From Deltaproteobacteria bacterium (GTDB lineage: Bacteria > Desulfobacterota > Syntrophobacteria > BM002): a stretch of DNA of 42,599 bases. Numbering within the stretch: the first letter of the stretch is position 1; each line of letters begins with the position of its first letter. Below, piece after piece: positions 35,468 to 37,900 of this stretch. The notes under the pieces are model-generated. The model had not been told where the DNA came from. It saw only the letters and a list, made by a program, of their open reading frames with translations, and did no database searches. Position numbers and translations under genes: made by a program. The stretch covers positions 1-42,599 of the forward strand of contig JAFDGZ010000040.1 of assembly GCA_019309045.1 (NCBI GenBank), in the 5' to 3' direction.

Positions 35468-36025
35468 AGACAGCTGAGACTTTCCGACTGCCAGCAACTG
35501 TTGGCACAAACCGTCTGCTTTTGCAGTTCCTTTTCTGGCAGCTGGCAGAAAACTTCCCCGGATGCGGTGTTGACTTTACCATATATTGGCCTGCTGTTAC
35601 CCTATTATTGTATCAACATCTGTATCAATCTGGGCGGCTTAACTATGTGCCGATCTGCCGTACTGTCAAGATCCTGACCTGTTTGGCGGATAAAGGAATG
35701 GCAGTGCCAGAGACGAGCAAGCTTCCTCTAGCTGATGCGCCTCATGGGACATTGCTGAGAGGGAAGGCTCGCCCGGAGGAGGTGGCTCTCAGAGCAAGTA
35801 ACGACGTGGATCAGGCGAGGATCTAGCGCTTTGGAGACAGAAGGCGCAGCTGAGCTAGATGGCTCCGGGCGGGGGCTTCATCTACAATGTTGAGTTTCCT
35901 CAGCTGGTGGTGTAATTCTGATGTTGCCGGGGTTCGAGCAGCTGATTTTTTGCCAGAAATGCTCGATTCTGACCTGAGCCAACCAGCCGGATCAAGATGT
36001 GGAACAGAAGGGATCTCCAGCTGAA
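35468..36025. other. Intergenic region between divergent genes
   Basis: It lies between the amine oxidase and the polynucleotide kinase, transcribed outward. A plus-strand frame at 35521-35826 (101 codons) has no family signature, no ribosome site and odd composition, so I do not call it. No promoter could be fixed. Confidence 0.4.
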
Positions 36026-36913
36026 ATGATTCACAGTTCTCCGGTTATTCCGCCTGAATGGAAAGGGCTGGATCTGTCCGGCCTCAAGGGTACACTGCTG
36101 GTGATCGGCGCCCCGAACGTGGGAAAGAGCACCTTCGCCCGCTATCTCTATCAGCAGTTGGCTGCCCGGCAGCAGCGCGTGGCTTTTCTGGACGGCGATC
36201 CAGGTCAAACCACCCTCTCTGCCCCCACCACTATGACCCTGGCGCTGGGGCGTTCAGGAGACCATGATTTCCCGCCCCGTGGACGGATGTGGCAAAGCTT
36301 CGTTGGCGCTGTGACTCCTGCAGGACACATGCTTCAGGTGGTAATCGGGGCTGCCAGGCTGGTGCGGGCAGCGCAGCGGGCTGGCGTGGAAATAATTGTC
36401 TATGACACCACCGGTTTGGTAAACCCCTTCCGAGGCGGCGTTTACCTGAAACTGGCCAAAATTAACCTGTTACGCCCCACTGTGGTATTTGCCATTCAGT
36501 CAGCTAGAGAACTGGAGTGCTTGTTGCAGCCCCTGAGACGGAGCAAACGGGTAGAACTCATAGAGCTGTCCATCTCTCCAGGAGCGCGAACTCGGGATGC
36601 AACCACCCGTCAGGCCCACCGTGCCGCCCAATTCAGTCGATATTTCACCAATTCCCTGCCATTGACCATCCATTGGCCTCGGTTGGCCGTGTTGCCAGCG
36701 CCTCGCTTTGTTGCCAATCAGTTAGTTGCCCTGGAAGACGAAGAGGGGTTGATGCTCGGCTTGGGTATTGTCCTGGAAAGCGACCAGAATGCCAAAAAGG
36801 TAGTGTTGTACACCCCAGTAACCTCCATCGATCGGGTGGATACCCTGCACCTGGGCGATGTGGTGCTGGATCCTCATACATTCCAGGATGCACGTTTGCC
36901 GAAGAGAAGATGA
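36026..36913 (+). CDS. Clp1/Grc3-type polynucleotide 5'-kinase
   Basis: A protein of 295 residues. The P-loop is GAPNVGKST (about 30-38), followed by VAFLDGDPGQTTLSAPTTMT, which matches the LD.D.GQ....P pattern of the Clp1/Nol9/Grc3 kinases. YDTTGLV and a Lys/Arg-rich lid (LLQPLRRSKRVELIEL) follow. These enzymes phosphorylate 5'-OH ends of RNA or DNA; eukaryotic and archaeal relatives act in tRNA splicing and rRNA processing. In bacteria the family is uncommon and its role little known. The C-terminal 60 residues (GLGIVLES, VDTLHLGDVVLD) form a beta-rich domain. ATG 36026 is preferred over a GTG at 35999. It is convergent with the MerF-like gene. Confidence 0.8.
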   Translation: MIHSSPVIPPEWKGLDLSGLKGTLLVIGAPNVGKSTFARYLYQQLAARQQRVAFLDGDPGQTTLSAPTTMTLALGRSGDHDFPPRGRMWQSFVGAVTPAGHMLQVVIGAARLVRAAQRAGVEIIVYDTTGLVNPFRGGVYLKLAKINLLRPTVVFAIQSARELECLLQPLRRSKRVELIELSISPGARTRDATTRQAHRAAQFSRYFTNSLPLTIHWPRLAVLPAPRFVANQLVALEDEEGLMLGLGIVLESDQNAKKVVLYTPVTSIDRVDTLHLGDVVLDPHTFQDARLPKRR

Positions 36914-36936: not shown

Positions 36937-37197
36937 TCAACTTGTTGGAATGCTTATAAAGAAATTTTTCGTTGACTTGCTTGATCTCCTCCACCTTTTG
37001 TATGAGGTAAAGGTCAGCACGATGAGCAGCGCCAGGGATGGCAAGAGCACATAATCAAGGTATGGTGTAAAAGTGCTCAGGCCCAGGGCGCCTAAAGTAA
37101 ATACCAGAAGAGGCGTAAAGCAACAAAGAGCGACGAGTAGTGTTCCGCCAAGCGCTGCAAAGAAACCCTTCTTGGATGTTCCCGGTTGCTCTTTCAT
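36937..37197 (-). CDS. MerF-like mercury transport protein
   Basis: A two-helix inner-membrane protein of 86 residues. GGTLLVALCCFTPLLVFTLG, then ALGLSTFTPYLDYVLLP, matches MerF closely. The vicinal pair C25-C26 in the first helix is the Hg(II) relay site. The second Cys pair of MerF, after helix two, is absent; the tail is RRSSKSTKNFFISIPTS. AGGATAG precedes the ATG. A MerR-type promoter lies about 200 bases upstream, and a thioredoxin-like selenoprotein gene is divergent. No merA, merP or merR gene is in the window. It could also move another soft metal. Confidence 0.75.
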   Translation of the reverse strand: MKEQPGTSKKGFFAALGGTLLVALCCFTPLLVFTLGALGLSTFTPYLDYVLLPSLALLIVLTFTSYKRWRRSSKSTKNFFISIPTS

Positions 37198-37411: not shown

Positions 37412-37443
37412 ATGATAAACATTGTACCTTGGTATAGAGTCAA
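37412..37443 (-). promoter_or_regulatory. MerR-family type promoter and operator
   Basis: On the minus strand TTGACT (37443-37438) is followed by a 19-20 base spacer and then TTATCA/TATCAT (37417-37412). The spacer contains the imperfect dyad CTATACC/GGTACAAT. The long spacer with a central dyad is the hallmark of promoters untwisted by MerR-family activators. It points to the MerF-like gene. The first ATG after it (37393, with AGGTGG) opens a 112-codon frame that overlaps merF out of frame. I do not accept that frame as a gene; the segment may be a leader. Confidence 0.6.
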
Positions 37444-37546: not shown

Positions 37547-37900
37547 ATGATTAGGAGCATTCCAAGAATAGAGTTGCTGTTTGCGCCGGGCTGCGCCGCA
37601 ATTCAAGGAACCATAGCCATGGTCGATGAAGTTCTGGGAGAGCTCCGCATGAATGCTGAGATTGCCAGAGTTATGGTAGAGAATGAAGAGAAGGTGAGGG
37701 CGCTCAGATTTCTCGGCTCTCCTTCCATCCGGGTGAATGGTCATGACATTGAACCGGGGGCTGACCAGAGGCAGGATTACAGTATGGGCTGAAGGCTCTA
37801 TGTAAGAGATGGTGGTTCACCTTCCAAATCGATTCCGAGGGATTTATTACTCGGAGCCTTGAAGAAAACTCTGCAGGAGAGAAAAGCTTCCAAGAGTTAA
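37547..37900 (+). CDS. Thioredoxin-like selenoprotein (Sec encoded by UGA at 37790-37792)
   Basis: From ATG 37547 (GGAGG six bases upstream) the frame runs 81 codons to a TGA. It then continues 35 codons to TAA at 37898. The first part (PRIELLFAPGCAAIQ, FLGSPSIRVNGHDIEPGAD) is a small thioredoxin-like protein of the kind encoded near mercury genes. In relatives the protein goes on D-Y-x-(M/L)-x-C-R-x-Y; here DYSMG is followed by UGA and RLYVRDGG, so UGA takes the exact place of that Cys. The remaining residues (SIPRDLLLGALKKTLQERK) match the expected C-terminal helix. A SECIS-like hairpin follows. Reading UGA as stop would lose the conserved C-terminus. Product with Sec: 117 residues, Sec82. 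The gene is divergent from the MerF-like gene. Confidence 0.8.
37790..37824 (+). promoter_or_regulatory. UGA Sec codon and candidate bacterial SECIS hairpin
   Basis: After the UGA (37790-37792), GGTG and CACC (37811-37821) form a stem with loop GTT. GA/TC pairs at 37808-37809 and 37823-37824 extend it past one mismatch. The loop begins 22 bases after the UGA and has a G at its first position. Both agree with the general rules for bacterial SECIS elements. Confidence 0.6.

Follow-up and report, generated by a model that had tools for sequence, protein, structure and literature searches.

The window analysed here is a stretch of 42,599 nucleotides from a genome of the sulfate-reducer type. A DF family selenoprotein gene is located at positions 37547–37900 on the forward strand, and a gene for a MerF-type mercuric ion transport protein is located at positions 36937–37197 on the reverse strand. 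The DF gene starts with ATG, ends with TAA (37898–37900) and contains an in-frame TGA at codon 82 (37790–37792). When this TGA is translated as selenocysteine (U), the product has 117 amino acids, including Sec82. In a standard ORF listing the gene ends at position 37792 and comprises only 81 amino acids. The first-pass annotation had proposed that the frame stops at TGA 37790, continues to the TAA and is missed by standard ORF calling; the coordinates, the translation and the ORF listing all agree with this proposal. The gene is a clean case of a selenoprotein that is shortened by a third in a plain ORF listing.

The product matches the NCBIfam model NF049942 "DF family (seleno)protein" with 99.7 bits (cut-off, 70) over residues 8–102 (model positions 1–94 of 96). 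Because this score is above the cut-off, the gene is a further member of an already known family. Past the UGA, the product possesses 35 residues with a conserved R-x-Y...P tail and a C-terminal helix. When residues 1–81 alone were searched against NF049942, the score was 82.1 bits; the tail therefore raises the score by its own conservation. This bears on the idea that the TGA is a true stop codon, in which case the locus would encode only 81 residues and the tail would be decayed or non-coding (a pseudogene or a truncation). A conserved tail argues against such a decayed end, as does the C-terminal helix, which is modelled at high confidence.

We then typed 105 homologs at column 82, including relatives from a species-level genome collection. 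When this collection was scanned with the protein of the window alone, no relative was obtained, and an alignment-based search was required. The codon at column 82 was TGA in 40 homologs, TGC or TGT (Cys) in 64 and AGT (Ser) in one. Apart from this Ser, the column directly before R-x-Y is occupied by Cys or Sec, in line with the Cys that the first-pass annotation had placed there in related proteins. Across genomes of the phylum (297) and of the class (56), in-frame stops within the family matches were exclusively TGA, without TAA or TAG. TGA is also present in G300 and G303, the closest relatives, which belong to the same taxonomic family. The fixation of TGA at a single column across lineages is difficult to reconcile with a true stop. 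An alignment of 67 homologs (A4) shows no variation at C16, F55, G57-S58-P59, D67 and Y85, and at least 90% of the sequences share C82 and R83. The tree of these 105 short proteins is poorly resolved. It requires three changes between Sec and Cys, and these may be gains or losses.

A bacterial SECIS-type hairpin is found at positions 37808–37824 on the forward strand, and its loop is 22 nt past the UGA. The stem is GA-U-GGUG / CACC-U-UC with a 3-nt loop, GUU. The bSECIS model requires a loop of 3–9 nt, a G within the first two loop positions and a distance of 16–37 nt from the UGA (PMC13188914); the loop sequence and the distance found here fall within these limits, and the hairpin is weak alone and backed by covariation. 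Its predicted stability is −3.8 kcal/mol with one U·U mismatch within the stem, which places it among the weakest in the family. Tested alone, it does not stand out against synonymous resampling (p about 0.55), and this is the one point in favor of a true stop. Plain folding of the 64-base segment 37787–37850, which contains the UGA, gave a result no better than shuffles and was therefore not taken as SECIS evidence.

The comparison across the family is different. In 38 of the 40 Sec members, the loop of the best hairpin is 16–22 nt downstream of the UGA, and the loop length is 3–5 bases in nearly all of them. The mean z score of hairpin stability under synonymous-codon resampling is −2.1 in Sec members and +0.18 in Cys members (p 9e-14, which is only indicative because the sequences are related). 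Two hairpin registers exist among the Sec members. In the register of the window, 95.7% of the pair cells form as compared with 81.8% in shuffles, 12 double-sided changes are observed as compared with 4.0 in shuffles, and four of the seven pairs change on both sides. When the partner strand is slid, pairing falls to 60% or less. The second register behaves in the same way. The window keeps the hairpin, with G-C at one position where relatives have A-U. Thus, the predicted SECIS hairpin of the window is convincing only through family comparison. The G-starting-loop hairpin that the first-pass annotation had placed 22 bases downstream of the UGA is present, and it recurs with covariation across the family.

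The host genome also holds the machinery for selenocysteine. tRNA-Sec with the anticodon UCA, SelA (621 bits), SelB (397 bits) and SelD (371 bits) were all found, which answers the check for selA, selB, selC and selD that had been proposed with the initial reading. The SelD gene (L048:1501-2427) contains its own in-frame TGA; therefore, the SelD of this genome is likely a selenoprotein itself. Conservation of the read-through, Cys or Sec at column 82, the family-level hairpin and the complete machinery together lead us to regard the DF gene of the window as almost certainly encoding a genuine selenoprotein, in which the UGA would be decoded as Sec82 by SelB with the hairpin at 37808–37824. A true stop at this TGA is extremely improbable, given this machinery and a hairpin that covaries in Sec members and gives no signal in Cys members.

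An AlphaFold model built with 67 sequences (pLDDT 94.3) shows a thioredoxin-like fold, in which the residues past the UGA form the last helix. Foldseek returned thioredoxins and SelW-like proteins as weak, generic matches (none with E <0.001), and a profile search found the archaeal thioredoxins 1fo5 and 1nho. Thioredoxin_3 (PF13192) and DUF2703 (PF10865) stayed below their gathering scores (14.9 against 24.8 bits and 18.4 against 23.6 bits, respectively); the protein has GCAAI and lacks CXXC. Cys16 (TGC, 37592–37594, forward strand) is the invariant partner of Sec82 in alignments A1 and A4. It is located at the start of the first helix, the position of the first Cys of the thioredoxin CXXC, and Sec82 belongs to an additional segment that follows the GSP hairpin and precedes the C-terminal helix. 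Our best explanation describes DF as a single thioredoxin-fold domain with two conserved chalcogen residues, Cys16 and Sec82, which may act as a pair.

The neighboring gene is a true member of the MerF family (NF033565, 76.5 bits with a cut-off of 50; PF11431, 60.7 bits), and no other MerF was found in the assembly. The first-pass annotation had described a MerF-like gene beside the selenoprotein gene. This description is right as to the family; the two genes are divergent, on opposite strands, and do not form one operon. Upstream of merF, the minus-strand sequence TTGACTCTATA (37413–37443) resembles, by eye only, half of a MerR-family operator. On the other side of merF, positions 35999–36913 encode a bacterial protein that matches PF16575 (103 bits), the CLP1 P-loop domain of polynucleotide kinases. 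Between 36900 and 38000, scans for promoters and terminators gave nothing above chance. In the host genome, no MerA was found above the cut-off and no match to MerB was obtained, the latter in a search that its control did not validate. The nearest relatives examined (L097 in G300; L101 and L102 in G303) lack mer genes within about 2 kb.

Conserved linkage or fusion with mer genes is found for the DF family, and the window itself shows only the divergent MerF. An N-terminal DF domain of the Cys form is carried by MerT or MerT-HMA proteins at 10 loci (L127, L132, L135, L149, L156, L157, L165, L175, L178 and L179), usually with a C-terminal HMA domain; four of these were confirmed by Pfam. The hosts are Acidobacteriota, Planctomycetota, Gemmatimonadota and Hydrogenedentota. 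At a Planctomycetota locus, DF directly precedes a MerB-MerT-HMA fusion. A DF-MerB fusion is encoded on a plasmid of Streptomyces xanthophaeus (L183:4001-4972), where it is annotated just as organomercurial lyase. Furthermore, a DF-like domain is fused to a protein of the LMW-PTP type (LMWPc, ArsC-like) at L082:4945-5622 and L054:1394-2107. One class of arsenate reductases has the LMW-PTP fold. MerR-type genes are present near about 35 loci, six of which carry Sec forms, and ArsR, ArsM and Acr3 are present near other loci of the family. Thus, the link to mercury loci suggested earlier is supported by the fusions and the MerR neighbors, and the family also occurs at arsenic loci.

In two DF genes (L064:5157-5444 and L065:5129-5416, in genomes G009 and G083), TGA replaces the codons of both conserved Cys residues, so that the second TGA stands in the place of Cys16. 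These genes have an ArsE-type thioredoxin gene on one side and acr3, 44–53 bp downstream, on the other. A short hairpin (−2.0 kcal/mol) also follows the first TGA. Judged from these reading frames, a Sec-Sec pair is possible in these proteins.

It is conceivable that arsenic rather than mercury is the main substrate of the Sec-type members, with the MerF of the window being coincidental. This idea overlaps with our best explanation. The double-TGA members upstream of acr3 are in line with it, as are the ars-type genes found within 3 kb at about 9 of 41 Sec loci. However, a MerR-type regulator precedes DF on the same strand at six Sec loci; in the window, the search with ars seeds gave no match close to the locus, and the direct neighbor there is MerF. 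We therefore consider a predominantly arsenic role rather unlikely. Apart from this question, Sec-type loci with a MerR-type regulator (L129:1269-2803, and also L105, L111, L113 and L137) possess, where intact, two further genes upstream of DF, one for a small membrane protein and one for a thioredoxin-like protein with GCPLC; loci of the L129 type are an unnamed mer-like operon type.

Another possibility is that DF is a selenoprotein of general redox function, such as a Sec-containing thioredoxin or SelW-like reductase or a disulfide handler, and that the Cys forms came to be linked with mer and ars genes because a generic reductant was recruited. LMW-PTP-type arsenate reductases are thioredoxin-coupled, and the fusion to such enzymes would suit a reductant. 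The thioredoxin-like fold, with thioredoxin and the SelW family among the structural matches, points in the same direction, and many Sec members lie in neighborhoods without mer or ars genes: within 3 kb, no mer or ars seed was found at about 26 of the 41 Sec-type loci, several of which adjoin housekeeping genes. However, DF has no CXXC motif, and the fused mercury transporter and organomercurial lyase domains need metal transfer and not disulfide reduction. We consider a purely general redox function possible but doubtful.

A role in metal handling is suggested by the DF-MerT(-HMA), DF-MerB and DF-LMWPc fusions, the MerR neighbors and the double-TGA forms beside acr3 and the ArsE-type thioredoxin. 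The N-terminus of MerT is cytoplasmic; a DF domain fused there would therefore be placed on the receiving side. We propose that DF may be a cytoplasmic thiol/selenol exchange partner of toxic-metal proteins. MerT/MerF-type transporters would deliver Hg(II) or As(III) from their inner Cys pair to DF, and DF would hand the metal on to a detoxifying enzyme or would reduce a partner enzyme. In the window, the adjacent MerF is the likely partner.

The levels of this proposal differ in probability. As a whole, a DF selenoprotein that uses Cys16 and Sec82 to exchange Hg(II)/As(III) or to reduce its partners is the explanation that we favor with some confidence. The weak SECIS hairpin of the window, the divergent MerF, the many Sec loci lacking mer and ars seeds, and the MerB and MerA searches were counted against it. 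Thiol/selenol exchange for toxic metals as the mechanism, judged from sequence comparison, is only slightly less probable, and for the copy in the window mercury, arsenic and general redox are not separated. More tentatively, and with somewhat less than an even chance, DF may accept Hg(II)/As(III) where MerT/MerF/Acr3-type transporters face the cytoplasm, and anaerobes may have swapped one or both metal-binding Cys residues for Sec, giving sites of the Cys-Hg-Se or Se-Hg-Se type. If Sec82 binds mercury, the cell would use the very high affinity of selenium for mercury in a dedicated handling protein.

Finally, we compared DF with known systems. The family was published in 2025 by Xiao and Zhang as "hypothetical protein DF", without a function, from one organism, Desulfosediminicola flagellatus, with Cys homologs and no other TGA homolog (PMC12013277). 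A 2026 review lists it with one Sec and no motif (PMC13188914), whereas the two acr3-linked genes show two TGA codons. The protein of the window is alike in its score above the curated cut-off and its identical Sec/Cys column. In contrast to the published description, 40 members with TGA were found here, of which two carry a second TGA, and DF is also fused to MerT, MerB and LMW-PTP-type domains. The literature searched contained no account of how widely TGA occurs in the family, of a second Sec position or of the Mer fusions, and relevant work exists beyond that search; likewise, no published DF-MerT link was found there, and other work on selenoprotein neighborhoods may already mention one. 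The fusions give a "hypothetical" selenoprotein family a testable role.

MTH895/ArsE and MJ0307 (TIGR00412 and TIGR00411; PDB 1fo5, 1nho and 1ilo) share with DF the thioredoxin-like fold, the GxPxxxV(D/N)G hairpin and neighborhoods related to metals or arsenic. However, the protein of the window is far below the cut-offs of TIGR00412 and TIGR00411, and DF has one Cys instead of CXXC and the additional Cys/Sec82 segment. SaoT of the SAO system and the MerT/CopZ-like selenoprotein NF045683 resemble DF in having Sec in thioredoxin-like or mercury-transport proteins tied to metal chemistry, and SaoT is given with UxxC (PMC13188914). In the profile search, SaoT did not match the protein of the window. 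The Hg(II) chaperones NmerA and MerP perform a two-residue hand-over of Hg(II) beside MerT. Their likeness to DF lies in the proposed hand-over role only, since their HMA fold and GMTCxxC motif differ from those of DF; DF and HMA domains co-occur within the same fusion.
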